Shown: positions 617 through 23,310 of the stretch, in pieces | Layout: each line of letters starts with the position of its first letter | Position numbering within the stretch: position 1 is the first letter of the stretch | From: Akkermansia muciniphila | GTDB taxonomy: Bacteria; Verrucomicrobiota; Verrucomicrobiia; Limisphaerales; JADLHS01 | Length of the DNA: 41,748 nt | Direction of reading: 5' to 3' | NCBI GenBank assembly: GCA_945882065.1 | Contig: CAMCWI010000007.1 | Location: 1 to 41,748, forward strand | Translations under genes and position numbers: made by a program | Notes under the pieces: generated by a model | The model's input: only the letters and a program-made list of their open reading frames with translations | What the model was told of the DNA's origin: nothing | Database searches by the model: none

Positions 617-644
617 GGTTACAATTCGGTGAGAATTCTGTGAC
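617..644. promoter_or_regulatory. Three-unit 11-bp direct repeat, Pho-box-like
   Basis: Hexamers GGTTAC (617-622), GGTGAG (628-633) and TGTGAC (639-644) recur exactly every 11 bp. The first two are each followed by the same spacer, AATTC. On the minus strand the units read GTCACA, CTCACC and GTAACC. The 11-bp period with a TCA/TAA core resembles PhoB-type Pho boxes. The regulator is inferred, not seen. Confidence 0.4.
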
Positions 645-683: not shown

Positions 684-700
684 TGTTACCGAATCGTAAC
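684..700 (+). promoter_or_regulatory. Two-unit 11-bp repeat, Pho-box-like, upstream of the gene at 836
   Basis: TGTTAC (684-689) and CGTAAC (695-700) are spaced by 11 bp, about 136 bp before the ATG at 836. The pair is also a partial inverted repeat, so a dimeric repressor site is an alternative reading. Confidence 0.35.
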
Positions 701-835
701 ATTGCCGACCTTTGTTGTTCACACGCCTCGTTTAAAACAGTGGCTCAAGATAGGCAGTTGTCGCTGCCTTAACGCAAAAAAGCGTTCCAAACGCTGTTTG
801 CATTGATCCAGAAACCCGAAAAAACGTAGAAACTC

Positions 836-2428
836 ATGAAAAAAAATCGAACCATTATGCAGATCGCTGCAGCCGGATTGCTCTCGGCTTCAGCAGCGAA
901 AGCTGCCTTGGTCACCATAACCGGTGACATTACGAACAATACCGCGGTGACGTGGTATGCAACCAATGAATATCTCCTTAACACGATGGTGTATGTGCAG
1001 ACGAACGCGGTGCTGGTGATCGAACCCGGCACAGTGATCAAAGGCGGAACGAACGCTTCTGTGACAGGTCGTGCCGGTCTGGCCAACATCGTCTCCGGTC
1101 TGTGGGTCACACGCGGTGGCCAGCTTTACGCCACGGGTACGGTCGTCAACCCGATCATCTTCACGATGGAAGGCGACGACGTGAACAACCCGAACGACAT
1201 TCCCCCGACAGTCACCGGCAAATGGGGTGGCGTCGTCATCATGGGCAATGCCCAGATCAACTCCGCTCAATACTCTGTCGGACAGGCGGCCTCGCCCAAG
1301 TTCGACGTGTATGAAGGCGTCGCGACAGTTCCGAACCCCGAAGTGGAACACATCTTCGGCGGCACGAACGACCTCGACAGCTCCGGTGCGTTGCGCTACG
1401 TCTCGATCCGCCATTCGGGTAACACCTTTGCTCCGGCCAAGGAACTCAATGGTTTGACGATGGGCGGCGTGGGCAGCGGCACAGACATCTCCTACGTTGA
1501 AGTCATGGCCAGCTCGGATGACGGCTTCGAATGGTGGGGCGGCACAGTCAACACCCATCACTTGATCGGTGCGTTCAATGAAGACGACGACTTCGACACC
1601 GACCAGGGCTATCGCGGCACGAACCAGTTCTGGTTTGCGATCAAGCCGACGTGGCAGGGTTCAAGCGACAGCCGCGGCATCGAGTCCGACGGCGATCTCA
1701 ACCAAGGCATCGTGGGTGATGCGCTTCCGTTCAGCCAATGGGCCGCGTATAACGTGACCCTCATCGGTCGCGGCAAGACGAACACGTTGTTCGGCGGCGG
1801 CAGCGGCTGGAACGCCCGCGACGAAGCAGCTCCCAACGTGATCAACTCCGTCATCGCTGAGTTCAACAACGGTTTGTTGCTCGACACCGACGGCTTGTAT
1901 CACTGGACCAACACGCTGTTCGCCAATGCGCTGAACAACGTCTGGGACAACACCACCGCTGGCAACGCCAACGGCCTCACATTCATCAACGACATCGCCC
2001 GTGGTAACAACGTCGGTGCGGCCGTCCTCGGCGGAATCAGCTACACCAACGACTTGGCTGCTCTTGATCCTCGTCCTCAAGCAGGTAGTCCGGCTCTCAC
2101 CAACGTCCTCGCTGGTGCGCCTACGGCCACCTCTTATCGCGGCGCGTTCAAGCCGAACGATAGCTGGGCGGATTGCTGGTCCGGTTTGTCCACGGAAGGT
2201 TACCTCGAGGTATCCGTTCCTGAACTGACCATCCAACAAGTCGGCGGCAACGTCGAAATCACATGGCTCGGCTTGCCGGGCAAAACATATCAGCTCGAAT
2301 CCACCACGTCTCTCAATGCTCCTGTCGTTTGGGGTAATGAAGGCGCAGCACTGGTTGGAGCGGGTGATTTCACCACCGTCAGCGTTCCTGCTGCTGGAAA
2401 CAAATACTTCCGGGTGAGTCGGAACTAA
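836..2428 (+). CDS. Secreted beta-helix-like protein with verrucomicrobial C-terminal module
   Basis: This 530-residue protein starts with a Sec signal peptide (about residues 1-23, ending ASAAKA before ALVTITGD). The following region has the pattern VLVIEPGTVIKGG, GLWVTRGGQLYATGT, PIIFT, GKWGGVVIMGNA, which recurs in secreted right-handed beta-helix-like proteins of Bacteroidota and Verrucomicrobiota. I know no assigned enzyme activity for it. The last 70 residues (TWLGLPGKTYQLESTTSL to NKYFRVSRN) form a small beta-sandwich-like module that also ends other secreted proteins in this window (9125-12289 and 35543-37618). A strong terminator follows at 2450, so it is probably monocistronic. Pho-box-like repeats upstream suggest phosphate-linked control, but that is inference. 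A second, truncated copy of its 3' end lies at 5698-5853. Confidence 0.75.
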   Translation: MKKNRTIMQIAAAGLLSASAAKAALVTITGDITNNTAVTWYATNEYLLNTMVYVQTNAVLVIEPGTVIKGGTNASVTGRAGLANIVSGLWVTRGGQLYATGTVVNPIIFTMEGDDVNNPNDIPPTVTGKWGGVVIMGNAQINSAQYSVGQAASPKFDVYEGVATVPNPEVEHIFGGTNDLDSSGALRYVSIRHSGNTFAPAKELNGLTMGGVGSGTDISYVEVMASSDDGFEWWGGTVNTHHLIGAFNEDDDFDTDQGYRGTNQFWFAIKPTWQGSSDSRGIESDGDLNQGIVGDALPFSQWAAYNVTLIGRGKTNTLFGGGSGWNARDEAAPNVINSVIAEFNNGLLLDTDGLYHWTNTLFANALNNVWDNTTAGNANGLTFINDIARGNNVGAAVLGGISYTNDLAALDPRPQAGSPALTNVLAGAPTATSYRGAFKPNDSWADCWSGLSTEGYLEVSVPELTIQQVGGNVEITWLGLPGKTYQLESTTSLNAPVVWGNEGAALVGAGDFTTVSVPAAGNKYFRVSRN

Positions 2429-5971: not shown

Positions 5972-6739
5972 TTAATAACCAAAGAGTTTCTGGCGGGCGA
6001 GCGGAGACATGGTTTCCAGATCGAGTAGCGTCAGATAATCAATCGTCTTGAATTGCCGATCCAGAGCGGGAGGACCGCAGATTGTTGCGCCAAGACTCAG
6101 ATAGGCGCGGAGGAGTTTTGGGATTTTGACCGGCTCGGCGGATAGCTGGGTCAGTGGGCAATCATGCGACGCCAGAGGACGTGTGCGCCAGGCGATCGGT
6201 GCGAGATGTTTCCGACACATGTCGGCGTAAGCCGATGCACCGACAGCGGGGTCCTGCGTGGTCATTGAACTGCAACCGATGAGATAGCGCGCGCTGCGTT
6301 GCCTCGCAAAATCAATCACGCCCTTCCACAAAAGACCTAGGACGACGAGATTCCGATGTTGTGGATGAACGCAGGCACGACCGAGTTCGATCATCTCGGA
6401 GCGATACGGTTCAAAAACTTCAAACTCGAATTCCTGCGCCGAGTAATAACCGAGCGTCACGGCAGTGTTGCCTGTCTGCATCCGATAAGTGCCGACGATC
6501 GTGGCCGAGGGCATATGTTCGACCAGTAGATGTTCGCAAACAGAATCAAACGCGTCTTCATCACGACCTGTGGCATAGGATTTTTCGAGACCCTCGTTCA
6601 GTTCGAGGTTAAAGATTTGAAAACGTAATTCTTGCGCGGCGTGAACCTCATCAAGGCTCTTCGCAAGACGCGTCGTGTATTGCAGGGTTGAATTGACCAC
6701 CAACCGCACCGGTTCGAGCGTGTCTGTGTTTAATTTCAC
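5972..6739 (-). CDS. GNAT-type N-acyltransferase of the OlsB / ornithine lipid family
   Basis: This 255-residue protein has the Acetyltransf_5/OlsB pattern. AQELRFQIFNLELNEG is followed by a DEDAFDSVCEHLLVE block, ATIVGTYRM, MIELGRACVHPQHRNLVVLGLLW as the acyl-donor binding core, RYLIGCSSM, and PKLLRAYLSLGATICGPPALD near the end. OlsB enzymes transfer a 3-hydroxyacyl group from acyl carrier protein to the amino group of ornithine, the first step to phosphorus-free ornithine lipids; related family members act on glycine or are hemolysin-like. The start is GTG at 6737-6739. It is transcribed divergently from the glycosyltransferase-PHP gene at 6915. A PlsC-like acyltransferase, the type needed for the second step (OlsA), occurs at 33789 but is not linked. 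Substrate specificity cannot be read from the sequence. Confidence 0.8.
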   Translation of the reverse strand: MKLNTDTLEPVRLVVNSTLQYTTRLAKSLDEVHAAQELRFQIFNLELNEGLEKSYATGRDEDAFDSVCEHLLVEHMPSATIVGTYRMQTGNTAVTLGYYSAQEFEFEVFEPYRSEMIELGRACVHPQHRNLVVLGLLWKGVIDFARQRSARYLIGCSSMTTQDPAVGASAYADMCRKHLAPIAWRTRPLASHDCPLTQLSAEPVKIPKLLRAYLSLGATICGPPALDRQFKTIDYLTLLDLETMSPLARQKLFGY

Positions 6740-6762
6740 ACGCGTAGTATTGCATGCTCTTG

Positions 6763-6806
6763 TGTCAACGCCGTGACGGGCGGGTCACTTTCTTGAATTT
6801 TGTGAC
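6763..6806. promoter_or_regulatory. Cluster of GTGAC/GTCAC half-sites between divergent lipid genes
   Basis: TGTCAA (6763), GTGAC (6773), GTCAC (6784) and TGTGAC (6801) crowd into 44 bp. The 6773 and 6784 sites form an inverted repeat with an 11-bp offset. The half-sites match those upstream of 12289 and 12506, but the phasing is imperfect, so this is a tentative shared operator. Confidence 0.25.
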
Positions 6807-6914
6807 GAGCCGAATCTAACACGACGGCAACAGCCGGGATGGATTTGTTTTCGATTAGTCACTTGCTCGCCACGAATCCGTAACGTCGTCTCCCAATGTT
6901 GTTCACCACAACGC

Positions 6915-9124: not shown

Positions 9125-12100
9125 TTACTTTCGCAGCCGGTAGAACCGATAATCATTCGTCATCGGCACCGTCACCGCGAGTTGACCGTTGGTTAACACC
9201 ACGCTTTGTGTCGCGTATGTCCAACTTGCTGGATTCCCTACAGTAGACGTTTCTTCGAGCCGAAATCCAGTTGCTTCAACGGTCCAGCGAAGCAATGCAT
9301 TGCTGCCAGAGCGAGTAAGCGTTAAGCCGGGCACTGTCATGATACCTGGCGAACCGATTTCACCGGCGGCGTTGACGGCGACAAATGCTCCGTTGATTCC
9401 AACCGCGCTTAACGTTGTGACATTCGTGTTGTTGCGTCCCGCCGCGTTGTCAAATGTTGCGTATGGCCCCGTCGGCGAGGCTCCGAACGAAACGCTGGCC
9501 ATGAGAACGTTGTTGCTGCTGTAGATGTTCACCGCATCTCCGCCAGTCCCCAAGCCGACGCCCGAACCCGTGTAGTTGCCGATCTGCAGTCCGGCTGGCG
9601 GCGTTGCGCCAAACCAATTCGACCGGAAAACCGTTTGGGCATTAACTTGGTTTGTGAATTCGATGAATATCACAGATTCGCCCGGAGCGATGTTGGTGAT
9701 CCCGTTGAGTGCCACTGCTCCTGCTGGCGATTGCGAGCTGTCGTCCATCTTCCAACTTGTGATGTCTATCGGTGTCGCCCCCGTATTCGATAGCTCGAAC
9801 CAATCTCCACCAACTGGACTATTTCCACTGGACCAAGGAGCGATTTCTGAGATGACGATCTTACCGCCTGTGCCGGGGGAGCCGATCTCATTCGTGCTGT
9901 TCACGGCAACAAAGGCGCTGTGAACATCGACCGAGCTGAGTTGCAAGATGGTGGCGTCATTGAGTCCGAATGAATTGTCAAAAGTTCCAAGCGGCGTGAT
10001 GGTTGGCGAACTCCCAAAAGCAACGCTGGCGCGAAGCTTTCCTGTGCTGTCAAACAGATTGACCTGATCGCCGCCCGTGCTCAGACCACCAGCTCCGGTG
10101 TAACTGCCGATCTGGAGGCCAGCAGGGGGATTCACCCCGAACCAGTTTGAAAGGAACAGTGGTGATTTGGTGGCCAGTGCCGCGGTATCTATGAAAACTA
10201 CCGCTTCGCCGGGAGCGATGTTGGTTACGCCAAGCAAGGGTCCTGCTGAAGCAAACGATTTGCTGTCGTCGTCAATTTTCCAGCCCGTGATATCAATCGA
10301 GTTCGCCGAGGTGTTGATGACTTCGAACCAGTCGGCGGCCACGGGGCTGTTGCCGCTGGACCACGGCGTCACTTCGGAAATGATCAGCCCGCCGATGCTG
10401 CCGGGGGAGCCGATTTCGTTGTAGTCGTTGACGGCGATAAACGCGCCATAAACGCGAGGCACGCTCAGGCGGGTGAGGTTCGAGTTTGTTCCATTGATGC
10501 CTGCCGCATTGTCGAAGGTCGCAAATCGAGGTCCCGGTGATGCTGCGCCAAAAACCACGCGCGCCTGAATAGTGCCGTTGGTGTCGAAGAGGCAAACACC
10601 ATCACCGCCTGTACCCAAACCGATTCCTGAGCCCGTGTAGCTTCCGACCTGGAGGTTGGTTGGTGAGTTCGCCCCAAACCATGTGTTCAAGAACGTCGCC
10701 TTGGTCGCGGTGAGATTAGCGGTCTCGATGAAAATAACCGATTCACCCGGAGCGATGTTGGTGACACCGTTTAAAGCTACGGCTGAGCCCAGTGTGGCTG
10801 AACTATCGTCCATCTTCCAGCCTGTAAGGTTTAATGTATTGGTACTAGTATTGGAGACTTCAAACCAGTCCCCGCCGATCGGGCTATTGCCGCTCGACCA
10901 TGGGGCAACTTCTGAAACGATCAAGCCGTTGACTGAACTCGCTGGCGTTTCATTGACCACATCGGTCACCGCGAGTGTGAAGGTGTTCGTAGCATCCGGC
11001 GCGGTGCCGACTGTGACGTCGTCCACGTTGATGGTGACCGTGTAGTTAGTTTTGGTTTCAAAATCGAGTACTGTGCCCGGCTTGATTTGAAGAGCCGTGC
11101 CGGTGATCTGAAAGGACGCAGCGTCCGGGCCGCTTACGGTGAGAAGATTTGTCCCCAAACCTTCATCCACGACAAAGAGATCAGCGACTTTGATCGCGGC
11201 AGCAGTGCTAGTGTTTTCCGCGATAGAATTGACCGTATTGGTGAGGAGCAAGGCCGTGGGTGGTTGATTCGGCAGTGCTGAAGGCGCATAAACCCAAAGT
11301 TCAGGATAATCAATGTTGCCGCCGCCGTTTTCATTCACCACGTAGAGAATGCCATTAGTATCCATCGTGAGACCTTCATGCTGCTGGTCGGGCGCGGTGA
11401 TGGTGCTGCCGAAATCGGCGACGATTTGCAGCGTGCTGTGGATATTGCCCGAACGATCCACATTCAGGACTCGCGCGTTTTCCTGACTGATCAAGATGAG
11501 GTGGCTAGCTTGGGGTTGGTTGGTCAAACCGGGGATGTTTGACAAAGCAAACACGTCAGCCAGATCAGTTACGCCGAGCAAAGCCGGATCGAACAAATTG
11601 GTGGAGTTTTCCGCTGTGGGCGAACCGTTACTCGCGGTTCCGGCGCTGAAATCAACGGCGGTCTGGAAAACACCGATCGGAGTGACTTCCTTGACGCAGA
11701 TGAATTCGCCAGTCAGTGGATCATACGACATTCCCTCAGTGCCTGTGTTGGGCGAAAATGTGCCGATATCCACGGTCTGGGCATTGGCCCGCGATAGCAC
11801 CGTGCCAGCGGCATACGTGAACTTGACGAGCTGTCTGTCACGTTCTTCGCTGAAAACAAACTGGCCACCACCGATATAGGCGATGCCTTCGGTGTCATAG
11901 AAATCCGTGCCCTGCGGACTGCTGCCCAAGGCAAGCGTCATAGTATCAATCAACGCACCCGTCTTGGATACCTGAGTGACCGAGCGACCACCGTCACCAA
12001 CGATGAACAAAGTGTCCGTATCCCAGTTATAGGCCACGCCGGAGGCTTCTTGACACAAAAGATTAGTGCTGTTCGGAGGCGTCGTGCGCGTCGGTTCGGG

Positions 12101-12289
12101 CAAACTGTAGCGGCCGATCCGGACGTATGTGGACAAATCCACGTTGGTGATCGCAGACGCGTTTGCGCTTCCCAAGATCAGGCCCGCGATGATCGCAGAG
12201 TAAAATTGGATTGCGGAAAAAATTCCTCGAGCTTGGCGACTGTTGTAACTAGTTTGTTTGTTCGCATTCATTTGTTTGTTGGTATTCAT
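9125..12289 (-). CDS. Large secreted protein: SdiA-regulated/phytase-like propeller, cadherin-like domain, three lamin-tail domains
   Basis: This protein has 1054 residues. The N-terminus carries a signal peptide (hydrophobic segment near 28-42, ANASA cleavage region), though ATG codons in a MNTNKQMNANKQ repeat make the exact start uncertain. Residues about 75-345 look like the SdiA-regulated / esterase-like phytase propeller (EASGVAYNWDTDTLFIVGDGG, DTEGIAYIGGGQFVFSEERD, HEGLTMDTNGILYVVNENGGG). A cadherin-like segment follows (IAENTSTAA, GPDAASFQI). Three lamin-tail domains start near residues 456, 634 and 809, each opening with a SEVAPWSSGNSP-like block and containing GWKxDDxS and NIAPGExVxFI. 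The last 60 residues are the shared verrucomicrobial C-terminal module. Lamin-tail domains often accompany extracellular nucleases or phosphatases, so a role in extracellular phosphate release is possible but unproven. Pho-box-like repeats lie 52 bp upstream. Confidence 0.75.
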   Translation of the reverse strand: MNTNKQMNANKQTSYNSRQARGIFSAIQFYSAIIAGLILGSANASAITNVDLSTYVRIGRYSLPEPTRTTPPNSTNLLCQEASGVAYNWDTDTLFIVGDGGRSVTQVSKTGALIDTMTLALGSSPQGTDFYDTEGIAYIGGGQFVFSEERDRQLVKFTYAAGTVLSRANAQTVDIGTFSPNTGTEGMSYDPLTGEFICVKEVTPIGVFQTAVDFSAGTASNGSPTAENSTNLFDPALLGVTDLADVFALSNIPGLTNQPQASHLILISQENARVLNVDRSGNIHSTLQIVADFGSTITAPDQQHEGLTMDTNGILYVVNENGGGNIDYPELWVYAPSALPNQPPTALLLTNTVNSIAENTSTAAAIKVADLFVVDEGLGTNLLTVSGPDAASFQITGTALQIKPGTVLDFETKTNYTVTINVDDVTVGTAPDATNTFTLAVTDVVNETPASSVNGLIVSEVAPWSSGNSPIGGDWFEVSNTSTNTLNLTGWKMDDSSATLGSAVALNGVTNIAPGESVIFIETANLTATKATFLNTWFGANSPTNLQVGSYTGSGIGLGTGGDGVCLFDTNGTIQARVVFGAASPGPRFATFDNAAGINGTNSNLTRLSVPRVYGAFIAVNDYNEIGSPGSIGGLIISEVTPWSSGNSPVAADWFEVINTSANSIDITGWKIDDDSKSFASAGPLLGVTNIAPGEAVVFIDTAALATKSPLFLSNWFGVNPPAGLQIGSYTGAGGLSTGGDQVNLFDSTGKLRASVAFGSSPTITPLGTFDNSFGLNDATILQLSSVDVHSAFVAVNSTNEIGSPGTGGKIVISEIAPWSSGNSPVGGDWFELSNTGATPIDITSWKMDDSSQSPAGAVALNGITNIAPGESVIFIEFTNQVNAQTVFRSNWFGATPPAGLQIGNYTGSGVGLGTGGDAVNIYSSNNVLMASVSFGASPTGPYATFDNAAGRNNTNVTTLSAVGINGAFVAVNAAGEIGSPGIMTVPGLTLTRSGSNALLRWTVEATGFRLEETSTVGNPASWTYATQSVVLTNGQLAVTVPMTNDYRFYRLRK

Positions 12290-12340
12290 GTTGATGATTT
12301 ATTCGACTCGGAGATTCCACCGAAGTTGCAATTCAGTTGG

Positions 12341-12367
12341 GTGACGGCGATGTGACAAACGCGTTAC
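12341..12367 (-). promoter_or_regulatory. Three-unit Pho-box-like repeat facing the gene at 12289
   Basis: GTGAC (12341), GTGAC (12352) and GTTAC (12363) are spaced exactly 11 bp apart. On the minus strand, the direction of the downstream gene, they read GTAAC, GTCAC, GTCAC. The array ends 52 bp before the ATG of the propeller/lamin-tail protein. Confidence 0.45.
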
Positions 12368-12400
12368 TTCAGTTTTATTTCGCACACACGTAATTTGCGT

Positions 12401-12417
12401 TGTCACCATATTGTCAC
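12401..12417 (+). promoter_or_regulatory. Two-unit Pho-box-like repeat facing the gene at 12506
   Basis: TGTCAC occurs at 12401-12406 and again at 12412-12417, an exact hexamer repeat with the 11-bp period and TGTCA core of the enterobacterial Pho box. A weaker third unit (CTTCAT) follows at 12423. The array is about 90 bp upstream of the ATG. Confidence 0.5.
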
Positions 12418-12505
12418 GTGCGCTTCATCAAAACGAAACGCGGCATCCCCACACTGTCTGAGTTCTTAAAAAACAAAAACAACAACGTCGTATTCCTAAA
12501 TCAAA

Positions 12506-13303
12506 ATGAAATCCTGCAAACACATCATTGGAGCGGCAGCAGTCCTGGCCGCTAGTCTCGTCACCACCCAGGCTCAGACCATCAGTCTCTGGAATTTTAA
12601 TTCAATCACGCCTGACGCGCTTACCACCACTGGCACCCTGACACCGAGCATCGGGTCTGGTGCTGTCTCCTTGGTCGGCGGAGCCGCGTCTACATTCGCT
12701 ACAGGAAGCCCCGGCGATCCAGCCTCGGTCAGCACTGACAACTCAGGCATGAATCTTTCCACTTGGGCAGCGCAAGGAACGGGCAATGAAACACGCGGTT
12801 TGCAGGTAGCCGTCAGCACTGTCGGGTTTGCCAATGTCAGCGTGTCTCTTGATTTCCGTGAATCGGGAACCGTCAGTCGTTTCTGGCAATTGCAAGCCTC
12901 CTCTGACGGTGTCTCGTTTAATAATGTGAGCGGTGGAATCGCGTCATTTGGCGCGGTCAACAATAACACCAGCACATCTTTCTCGAGCACGGGTCTCTAT
13001 GCCAACACTTCCTCCAGCGGATCTCAGTCGTTTGTGCAATCAGTCAATTATCTCTTCGTTTCCGGCAGCGTCTACGAGAACAACGCGAATTTTGCATTCC
13101 GTTGGTTGGCAGCCTTTGATCCTGCCGCTGGTGGTAATTACGTGAGCTCCTTCGCTGGCACTACCGCCGCCTATTCCACCAGCGGGACAGCCCGCTTCGA
13201 TATGGTAACGGTGGCGAGTGTTCCCGAACCGACCTCTTTGACACTCGGCTTACTTGGAATGGGAGCAATGATTTTCCGGAAGCGTTTGGTTGCGCTCCGG
13301 TAA
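12506..13303 (+). CDS. PEP-CTERM sorted secreted protein
   Basis: The 265-residue protein has a signal peptide (MKSCKHIIGAAAVLAAS with cleavage after TTQAQ) and a typical C-terminal PEP-CTERM tail: VPEPTS, a hydrophobic stretch LTLGLLGMGAMIF, then basic RKR. PEP-CTERM proteins are cleaved and anchored or exported by an exosortase, which is not encoded in this window. The body is rich in Ser, Thr, Asn and Gly and looks like a beta-sandwich with no recognised active site (SLWNFNS, SVSLDFRESGTVSRFWQLQAS). A strong terminator follows, so it stands alone. The double TGTCAC site upstream suggests shared control with the divergent large secreted protein. Function is unknown. Confidence 0.85.
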   Translation: MKSCKHIIGAAAVLAASLVTTQAQTISLWNFNSITPDALTTTGTLTPSIGSGAVSLVGGAASTFATGSPGDPASVSTDNSGMNLSTWAAQGTGNETRGLQVAVSTVGFANVSVSLDFRESGTVSRFWQLQASSDGVSFNNVSGGIASFGAVNNNTSTSFSSTGLYANTSSSGSQSFVQSVNYLFVSGSVYENNANFAFRWLAAFDPAAGGNYVSSFAGTTAAYSTSGTARFDMVTVASVPEPTSLTLGLLGMGAMIFRKRLVALR

Positions 13304-14101: not shown

Positions 14102-14129
14102 TGTAACGCCGCCGCCCTTCGGATGTCAC
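14102..14129 (+). promoter_or_regulatory. Weak Pho-box-like pair upstream of the PhoX-like gene
   Basis: TGTAAC (14102-14107) and TGTCAC (14124-14129) are 22 bp apart, two 11-bp steps, with no recognisable middle unit. They lie 79-106 bp before the ATG at 14208. Weak on its own; noted because of the same pattern at other loci here. Confidence 0.25.
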
Positions 14130-14207: not shown

Positions 14208-15788
14208 ATGAAAACAAACATCATCAATACTCGAAGCACCGGTGCTATGGCTCGGCATCTTGGTCTTGCAGCCGTATTCAGTGCCGCACTCGCAGCCAGC
14301 GCGCAGCAATACACTCAAGTCAAACCCTACGTCGTGTCGGTCTCGACGGATTATGTCATCCAACCCTTGTTCAGTGTGGGCGATCAAGTACCCAACACCA
14401 GCGACACCAGCCGCACGTATCAGATGGTCGGCATCCCCGATGGTCTTGGTGCTTACAAGACCGAGTGCGGCGACACCGTGCTGTTCATGAATCACGAACT
14501 TCCCCGCAGCGTTGTCTCCCAACCCAACGTGGGCGAGACGCCGTTGCGCGGCGCGTTCGTCTCCCGCTTCATTCTCGACCAACAAGCCCGTGTCCGTTCC
14601 GGTGAGGTGGCTTACGACTCGGTTCACGACGAGGAAACCGGCATCGTTCATCCGCTGGCCACGACGAATAATGCAGCACCGGCCTTCGCGCGCTTCTGCT
14701 CTGGCTCGTTCTCACATCTTGAATCCGGATTGGATCGCTCAATGTTTTTCACGGGCGAAGAATCTGGCGGCGCAGATACATTTGACGGCAAGGGCGGTCT
14801 GGCAGCAGTGGTGTTTGATCGCGAACTTCACACGCTTCCCAAGCTCGGACGTTTCCCTTGGGAGAATTCCCTCGTGCGTCCAGTTGTCGCAGGTTACACC
14901 GTGATCATGTGCATGGAAGACGGGCCGACCACGCCGGACAACCAGCTCTACATGTATGTCGGGGCGAAGGACAAAACTCCAAGCGCAAGCGTCCTCAGCC
15001 GAAACGGCCTCGATACCGGCAAACTCTACGCATTCGTCGCTGACGCTGGTTATCCCACGAACGAGATCGGCTACACCAACGGCAGCATCACTGGCAACTG
15101 GGTGGAAGTGCCGGACGCAGACCTGTTGACAGACGCACAACTCGAAGCCGCCACCGACGCGACCGGCGCGTTTGGTTTCATTCGTATTGAAGACGGTGCT
15201 TGGAGCAAGAAAGACAAAAACAAATTCTACTTCGTCACCACTGGCAACGGCGCGGGCAACCGTCTCGGTCGCGGCTACGAGGTGAACTTCAATAAACAAA
15301 ACATCCTCGGACAAACAACGATCAGCATGATCTACAACGCGGACGAAGTGAACGCCGCTGGCGGAGACATCGCTTTTGCCGCCGACAACATGGATACGAG
15401 CAAAGACTTCATCATGATCAATGAGGATGGTCATTCTGACAGCCGCCCCAAGTATGCCGCCCGGGGTCGCGAAGGCAGCATCTGGCGTTTGGACCTCAAG
15501 AACAACTTCGCCGCCAAACGCGTCGCGGAGTTGAATCCGCCCGGCACTGAGATCGCATCGGGTCAAACACAGCCGCCTGCCGTGCCCGTTCCTGGCACTT
15601 GGGAAACCAGCGGCATCATAGACGCGTCGGACTTCTTTGGTCGCAATTCATGGCTGACGGTCGTCCAAGCGCACAGCCCCACACTCGCTCCAGTTCCCGG
15701 CACGGTTGAAGACGGCCAGCTCGTACTGATGTTGCCGAGCAAGGCACGCATCGGCGGCGGCAGAGATGACCGCGACGATAAAGACTGA
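14208..15788 (+). CDS. Secreted PhoX-type (DUF839) alkaline phosphatase-like protein
   Basis: The product is 526 residues from ATG 14208. I chose this start because it gives a signal peptide (positive MKTNIINTR, hydrophobic LGLAAVFSAALAASAQ) directly before the mature part; in-frame codons further upstream read like non-coding DNA. The body shows DUF839/PhoX features: GIPDGLGAY, VLFMNHELPRS, ARFCSGSFS, MFFTGEESGG, GRFPWENS, CMEDGPTTPDNQLYMYVGAK, FIRIEDGAWSKKDKNKFYFV, MINEDGHSDSR and GSIWRLDL. PhoX enzymes are Ca/Fe-dependent phosphomonoesterases induced by phosphate starvation. The acidic and Glu/Asp motifs fit metal binding, but the exact catalytic set was not aligned. The tail is acidic and basic (RDDRDDKD). 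It is followed by a strong terminator and then the receiver-ppk operon. Confidence 0.75.
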   Translation: MKTNIINTRSTGAMARHLGLAAVFSAALAASAQQYTQVKPYVVSVSTDYVIQPLFSVGDQVPNTSDTSRTYQMVGIPDGLGAYKTECGDTVLFMNHELPRSVVSQPNVGETPLRGAFVSRFILDQQARVRSGEVAYDSVHDEETGIVHPLATTNNAAPAFARFCSGSFSHLESGLDRSMFFTGEESGGADTFDGKGGLAAVVFDRELHTLPKLGRFPWENSLVRPVVAGYTVIMCMEDGPTTPDNQLYMYVGAKDKTPSASVLSRNGLDTGKLYAFVADAGYPTNEIGYTNGSITGNWVEVPDADLLTDAQLEAATDATGAFGFIRIEDGAWSKKDKNKFYFVTTGNGAGNRLGRGYEVNFNKQNILGQTTISMIYNADEVNAAGGDIAFAADNMDTSKDFIMINEDGHSDSRPKYAARGREGSIWRLDLKNNFAAKRVAELNPPGTEIASGQTQPPAVPVPGTWETSGIIDASDFFGRNSWLTVVQAHSPTLAPVPGTVEDGQLVLMLPSKARIGGGRDDRDDKD

Positions 15789-15952: not shown

Positions 15953-16333
15953 ATGTCAAAATGTATTTTGGTGGTGGACGACGAGTTGGAATTCATCGAG
16001 CTGCTTCAATACCGGTTGCAAGATTGCGATTACAAGATCGTGACCGCCACGAACAGCACCGATGCGTTGAACCAAGCGTGGGAACATTCGCCCGATGTCA
16101 TCCTGACCGATCTTCTGCTTCCAGACCTTGATGGCCTGACGCTCTGCGAAATACTTCAGCGGCAGGAATCCACGCGCAAGATACCGATCATCATGATCAC
16201 AGCACTGGGAACGGATGTGACTCGCTACTCAGCGCAGGTCGCAGGCGCGGTCGAATTCTTCACCAAGCCCCTGGACTTTGAGCGATTGAAGAAAACCATC
16301 CACTCGCTTCTGGAAACCACGGCGCGGTTGTAA
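15953..16333 (+). CDS. Stand-alone CheY-like response regulator receiver protein
   Basis: This 126-residue single receiver domain has the full active-site set: D9 and D10 in LVVDDE, phospho-acceptor D53 in VILTDLLLPDLDGLT, T83 in MITALG and K105 in FFTKPLD. There is no output domain, so it would act by protein contact, as CheY or a phosphorelay intermediate does. No histidine kinase is encoded nearby. It lies 64 bp upstream of polyphosphate kinase on the same strand, with SixA (a phosphohistidine phosphatase able to act on phosphorelay Hpt domains in E. coli) two genes downstream, so a phosphorelay-polyphosphate link is possible. The ATG is preceded by no strong Shine-Dalgarno. Confidence 0.9.
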   Translation: MSKCILVVDDELEFIELLQYRLQDCDYKIVTATNSTDALNQAWEHSPDVILTDLLLPDLDGLTLCEILQRQESTRKIPIIMITALGTDVTRYSAQVAGAVEFFTKPLDFERLKKTIHSLLETTARL

Positions 16334-23067: not shown

Positions 23068-23257
23068 GCAAAGGACGTGCAGCTTAGGGACGCCGCGCAG
23101 GAGCGGCAAGGAAAACGGAAACCGCACCGCGTTCGCGGCGCACTGCTCCCGACACACGGGTGAGATTAAAACCGGGTGAAGCTACCGGTTCGTTTTCGTC
23201 GTCTTTCTCGTCGTCGTCCGCGAATTTGCAGTCGTTTCCGACGGGAACGAGGGGTGC

Positions 23258-23310
23258 GCGGCACTTTCAGTCACACCCGAACAAAAGGGGTGTGACTGGA
23301 AGTGCCGCTC
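23258..23310. repeat. Palindrome made of an IS end and an inverted near-copy of it
   Basis: Positions 23258-23278 read GCGGCACTTTCAGTCACACC plus a final C, which is the reverse complement of the IS left end at 23288-23308 with one mismatch; 9 bases separate the arms. The inner arm is the left terminus of the IS at 23288. The outer arm may be the right-hand tip of a lost second IS copy or part of a target palindrome. Confidence 0.8.

Follow-up and report, generated by a model that had tools for sequence, protein, structure and literature searches.

Divergent Pho-box arrays between two secreted-protein genes form a probable bidirectional Pho-regulon promoter in a verrucomicrobial phosphate island

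The DNA analyzed here, a window of 41,748 nucleotides, contains an intergenic region at 12290-12505, flanked by one gene on the minus strand (9125-12289) and another on the plus strand (12506-13303). Both products are characterized in Table 1; for the propeller of the left one, the best solved Foldseek match is E. coli YjiK (3qqz, E 8.8e-14). Two sets of short repeats, spaced by exactly one turn of the helix in each set, are placed back to back within this region. Read on the plus strand, the left array consists of GTGAC (12341-12345), GTGAC (12352-12356) and GTTAC (12363-12367), 51 bp from the left-gene ATG at 12289, and the right array is formed by TGTCAC at 12401-12406 and again at 12412-12417, 88 bp ahead of the right-gene ATG at 12506. 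A preliminary description of this DNA had drawn attention to these five words and their exact 11-bp steps, which were confirmed to the base. A weak GTAAT at 12390 misses the 11-bp step, being 12 bp away from the following box of the right array. All five boxes end in C, not in the T that follows the core A in E. coli. Inspection of promoters by eye shows the left array followed by CTGAATTGC, which resembles phoB promoters, with the right array being weak in this respect; a convincing -10 element at constant spacing was not seen by this means.

Table 1 Pho-type arrays and associated genes of the window.
Feature	Position	Strand	Remarks
Three-box Pho array, GTAAC-N6-GTCAC-N6-GTCAC	12341..12367	-	Reads to left gene; 15.7 bits
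Two-box Pho array, TGTCAC-N5-TGTCAC	12401..12417	+	Reads to right gene; 11.1 bits
Left gene, 1054 aa, predicted secreted	9125..12289	-	SdiA-regulated/phytase-like beta-propeller and three lamin-tail domains
Right gene, 265 aa	12506..13303	+	N-terminal signal-like segment (by eye), PEP-CTERM motif
Further GTNAC-22-GTNAC site	618..644		Model 613-632, 9.4 bits; no target gene named
Pho array upstream of orf836	684..707	+	11.9 bits; resembles porin-pstS and TonB-operon promoters
orf836, 530 aa, predicted secreted, family not recognised	836..2428	+	Homologue adjoins pho-boxed porin in genome G007 (L130)
OlsB-like N-acyltransferase (ornithine lipid synthesis)	5972..6739	-	Best NCBIfam matches OlsB, below cut-off
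Pho-like array upstream of OlsB-like gene	6762..6788	-	Weak by model, 7.9 bits
Pho-like array upstream of MGDG synthase	6858..6884	+	9.8 bits; conserved
MGDG-synthase/GT28 glycosyltransferase fused to CehA/McbA-like PHP domain, 686 aa	6915..8975	+	
GTAAC-22-GTCAC upstream of PhoX-like gene	14103..14129	+	Weak; missed by model
Divergent PhoX-like alkaline phosphatase	14208..15788	+	PF05787 of alignment members, fold

Array orientation rests on the central base N, the one letter at which GTNAC is not palindromic. In 15 sites of related genomes, N is A or C in the direction of the gene in 42 of 45 boxes, a bias that renders the orientation of an array testable, and the claim holds: all five boxes at 12290-12505 follow it. 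The earlier proposal that each gene has its own correctly oriented array is also in line with scores of a motif model trained on relatives (see below), with the left array reaching 15.7 bits in minus direction vs 3.9 bits in plus direction, and the right array 11.1 bits in plus direction in an unfiltered scan of the window. The core is where that proposal needed revision: the 11-bp pitch stands, and the repeated unit is rather GTNAC (GTMAC in gene direction) than TGTCA.

Repeats of this type are rare and placed outside genes. A triple of GTNAC with at most one mismatch occurs at four places in the window vs 0.12 expected, and TGTCAC-N5-TGTCAC with at most one mismatch at two places vs 0.21 expected, a count also reached in 1 of 100 shuffles. 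The window holds 155 GTNAC words, of which 33 are intergenic. Pairs of these words at a step of 11 were found five times in intergenic and never in coding DNA, and the same numbers apply to a step of 22 (here including the 12341 triple and a hairpin-associated pair at 23270), compared with one intergenic and six coding pairs over the remaining steps between 6 and 23. When the 34 intergenic regions were shuffled 2000 times, five pairs were reached at neither step 11 nor step 22. The arrays are hence as improbable by chance as had been suggested, and the motif is not equally frequent in coding DNA, an outcome that had been named as evidence against the Pho-box reading. The pair at 23270 (step 22) was rejected as a Pho box; it belongs to a longer inverted repeat (23255-23310) close to the pyrophosphatase-like gene, and this repeat is probably a hairpin or terminator that mimics a GTNAC pair. 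Across the 3.86-Mb genome (348 contigs, 89.7% complete; gene borders beyond the listed open reading frames of the window taken from a codon-usage script), exact TGTCAC-N5-TGTCAC is found at a single place, the right array. Patterns relaxed to one mismatch are not specific on their own, neither the pair (10 places genome-wide vs 4 in the control) nor the triple (9 vs 6).

The exact triple GTNAC-N6-GTNAC-N6-GTNAC occurs at two places in this genome, none being found in the reversed control. One is the left array; the other is located at C205:6117-6143, 60 bp upstream of a phoB homologue, which lends support to the initial reading of the repeats as Pho boxes. The other 11 genomes of the family harbor nine exact triples, all of them upstream of phoB (8) or pstS (1), and the family total of 11 matches compares with 3 in the reversed control. 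Order-wide, 81 matches in 46 of 96 genomes stand against 43 control matches in 31 genomes, so that enrichment of the bare pattern beyond the family is no more than about twofold. We read 29 loci of relatives, one per genome, from the 45 relative genomes with a match. Among the 20 exact-triple loci read outside the family, nine adjoin phoB, phoU or a porin gene and 11 do not; among the latter are a locus within a called gene (L084) and one (L103) of five near-identical copies in a single genome. These five GTCAC triples (genome G027) resemble a dispersed repeat rather than Pho boxes. In the genome under study, pattern matches on C77 (inside a long open reading frame), C93 and C58 are left without explanation.

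The preliminary description had placed the regulator outside the window, and a PhoB homologue is indeed encoded on contig C205. Its best NCBIfam match is TIGR02154 (PhoB) with 257.8 bits, below the cut-off of 296.2, and many response regulator models match the same protein. It is identical to E. coli K-12 PhoB at 101 of 230 alignment columns and keeps D53, which we take to be the phosphorylated residue of PhoB. Its recognition helix and wing keep T194, H198, R200, R201, R203 and R219, with T in place of V197; R201, T194, V197 and R219 are given as base contacts of PhoB in a paper on PmrA (PMC3973317). Several relatives carry a kinase-like gene after phoB, as judged by eye. In genome G018, homologues of the OlsB-like, MGDG synthase and phoB genes share one locus, where phoB is preceded by a site of 17.6 bits.

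For a graded search we built a sequence-only profile from 15 sites in other genomes, none of them from this genome; the model inherits the choice of pattern, because its training sites were picked by the exact triple. Scanning the genome yielded 11 matches at E-values up to 10. The phoB promoter ranks first with 23.1 bits and the left array second, although its genome-wide E-value is only 0.077. A DUF3047-phosphodiesterase operon, a site on C143, porin-pstS and a DUF3450-ExbB-ExbD-TonB operon take the next ranks, and orf836 is eighth. Apart from phoB and the left array, the 11 matches comprise two sites each at the DUF3047-phosphodiesterase operon and at porin-pstS, one each at the TonB operon, orf836 (window 684) and, on C193, a gene for a type I phosphodiesterase, as well as two left without explanation (C143:3079 and C150:3383). 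The right array is absent from this genome-wide list, for which 150 of 1511 candidates were scored, and appears only in the unfiltered scan of the window. The best six matches of that scan (12340, 684, 12401, 6858, 613 and 6772) all fall between genes, in DNA that makes up 12% of the window; the following six consist of four coding matches and two that overlap the end of a gene. In 11 relatives the model found 24 matches, nine of which are training sites. The other 15 include three by phoB, phoU or a porin gene, three at the DUF3450-TonB operon, three at other ExbB/ExbD genes and one at a TonB receptor gene, with a clear phosphate link being absent at the remaining five (L122, L123, L127, L128 and L132).

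The window is a phosphate island with several Pho-box promoters, one of which is the region at 12290-12505. The same boxes are found upstream of porin-pstS (C305), the TonB operon, two phosphodiesterase loci, the OlsB-like gene, the MGDG synthase gene and orf836. Lack of the motif at other phosphate genes of this genome, which would have spoken against a Pho box, is not what we found, given the arrays before phoB (C205) and porin-pstS (C305). The promoters of orf836 (684-707), porin-pstS (L027 605-655) and the TonB operon (L107) share TGTnAC-N5-GTAAC-AnTGsCGAC, a similarity that extends beyond the boxes. Pho boxes precede the DUF3450-ExbB-ExbD-TonB operon here (C3:16073-16096) and at three loci in two relatives (L126, L135 and L136), which suggests from sequence that TonB-driven uptake may belong to the Pho regulon.

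Between the OlsB-like gene and the MGDG synthase gene the divergent design recurs, one array being found at 6762-6788 and the other at 6858-6884. Conservation of the MGDG array extends to 10 of 12 copies (this one counted), whose best position, 27-46 bp ahead of the start, retains 7 or more of the 8 outer-box letters. In 1000 shuffles, 0.41 copies did so on average and 4 at most; the conservation count is descriptive, because outer boxes and spacing were chosen after seeing the sequences. Of 57 genomes searched, 11 (this one counted) contain near full-length matches to the MGDG-PHP fusion, one of them with two copies, and the fusion may be a lipid-remodelling enzyme in a single protein. For the PhoX-like protein, the Pfam family PF05787 matches seven of nine members of its alignment and not the window protein itself. 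The best solved Foldseek matches of its AlphaFold model (mean pLDDT 68.6) are PhoX structures 4a9v (E 1e-16) and 3zwu (E 5e-16) at a query TM of 0.61-0.62. Family, through its alignment, and modelled fold thereby mark the protein at 14208-15788 as a predicted PhoX.

Further phosphate genes of the window code for a polyphosphate kinase, a PhoU-like DUF47 protein, a PHO4 transporter and a DHH/DHHA2 pyrophosphatase-like protein. A secreted endonuclease/phosphatase-family protein and, according to Pfam, a histidine phosphatase, which we take to be SixA-like, are also encoded. The DNA upstream of the PPK and Pit genes of the window has no model match better than chance; of the pst, pho and ppk genes named for such a check, pst and pho genes of this genome have arrays, and the ppk gene of the window has none.

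We consider it very likely that 12290-12505 is a bidirectional Pho-regulon promoter, where PhoB~P on both arrays switches on both divergent genes. As the same sites stand before phosphate genes in this genome and in its relatives, it is therefore an ordinary but well supported phosphate-control region. When phosphate is scarce, a PhoR-type kinase would phosphorylate the PhoB homologue on C205; PhoB~P would then bind the 11-bp-spaced GTMAC boxes head-to-tail, one array per direction, and recruit RNA polymerase to both genes. The YjiK/phytase-like propeller-lamin-tail protein and the PEP-CTERM protein would be made alongside a phosphate transporter, phosphodiesterases and lipid-remodelling enzymes. 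Low phosphate, PhoB phosphorylation, head-to-tail binding and polymerase recruitment form the standard PhoB chain (PMC10294691, PMC3973317), of which the present data show the DNA side and the presence of the regulator. The two products may serve in extracellular phosphoester use. Evidence against the assignment comes from the four nearest homologous loci of the left gene (L043, L044, L046 and L047), none of which has an array upstream, and also from the missing firm -10 element, the weak genome-wide significance of the right pair and the PPK and Pit genes, which have no array. For the PEP-CTERM protein, a search of the 89.7% complete genome for an exosortase (PF09721) found none, and 1 of 14 control genomes matches this family.

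How much of this assignment extends to the right gene depends on the weaker array. The left array might be a genuine Pho promoter and the right pair auxiliary or fortuitous, leaving only the left gene under phosphate control, and the pair indeed has just two boxes, scores 11.1 bits, is missing from the genome-wide model list, and lies 88 bp from the start codon with no clear -10 element. Its being the only exact copy in 3.86 Mb, its correct orientation, and the porin-pstS promoter, which likewise begins with a two-box pair, argue against this view, which we regard as unlikely. A further point against the main reading is that E. coli has many PhoB sites which are bound but inert, albeit intragenic ones (PMC10294691).

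Identity of the regulator is a separate matter. Tandem repeats are common in binding sites of the OmpR/PhoB family, so that another member with the same 11-bp pitch could occupy the boxes in place of PhoB; the many response regulator models that match the C205 protein and a single-domain receiver encoded in the window (15971-16333) could be cited in favor. We hold this to be quite improbable, as across family and order the motif is placed directly upstream of phoB, pstS/porin or phoU, and its further targets are phosphodiesterase and phosphate-island genes. Least probable by far, to the point of being hardly credible, are repeats that arose by chance, or an RNA hairpin or terminator, devoid of a regulatory role: the two arrays, being approximate inverted copies of one another, are able to pair in a fold, but 11-bp periodicity and association with phoB speak against it. 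The hairpin or RNA reading was rejected with a fold z of 0.08, no better than shuffles, and no Rfam match in the window.

The kind of system is already known; new are a box definition specific to this clade, the secreted proteins as targets, and the fusion of lipid enzymes. Like the E. coli pho box, described as direct repeats with TGTCA/TGTAA cores at 11-bp pitch bound by head-to-tail PhoB, e.g., TGTCATAAAGTTGTCACG at phoA (PMC10294691, PMC3333781), the arrays are direct repeats of this pitch. Unlike CTGTCAT-N4-CTGTCAT of E. coli, they have C after the core A, GC-richer spacers and often three or more boxes. The GTNAC core is closer to (c/t)GT(n)AC, the PhoB box of Desulfovibrio vulgaris (PMC3333781), than to E. 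coli CTGTCAT. A tandem core of this type, its position upstream of pst genes and a PhoB orthologue are common to both systems; in D. vulgaris a 6-bp repeat alternates with a 4-bp spacer, whereas here two to five boxes follow an 11-bp pitch and N is mostly A or C. Marine bacteria place PlcP-Agt lipid remodelling genes under Pho boxes (PMC4796936). Here, too, the gene of a glycolipid synthase is preceded by such a box, with the difference that its MGDG-synthase-like domain forms a fusion with a PHP domain and that the neighbouring divergent gene is OlsB-like.

In the literature covered, mostly titles and beginnings of abstracts, we found no experimental Pho-box definition for this order. GTMAC at 11-bp pitch provides a computationally tested one, directly scannable in uncultured relatives, and low phosphate becomes the likely expression condition for the uncharacterised secreted proteins and the fused glycolipid synthase. 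More tentatively, and with considerable doubt, the Pho-boxed YjiK-propeller/lamin-tail protein, the PEP-CTERM protein and orf836 might constitute a surface module that scavenges organic phosphate, complemented by an MGDG-PHP fusion that would do the jobs of PlcP and Agt in one polypeptide. If true, families without an established phosphate role would join a phosphate-starvation island. In genome G029 (L102), an exact triple is located 38 bp before the gene of a secreted protein similar to lamin-tail and Ig regions of window proteins, which suggests, at the level of sequence, that lamin-tail/Ig-like secreted proteins may be Pho targets in other genomes too.
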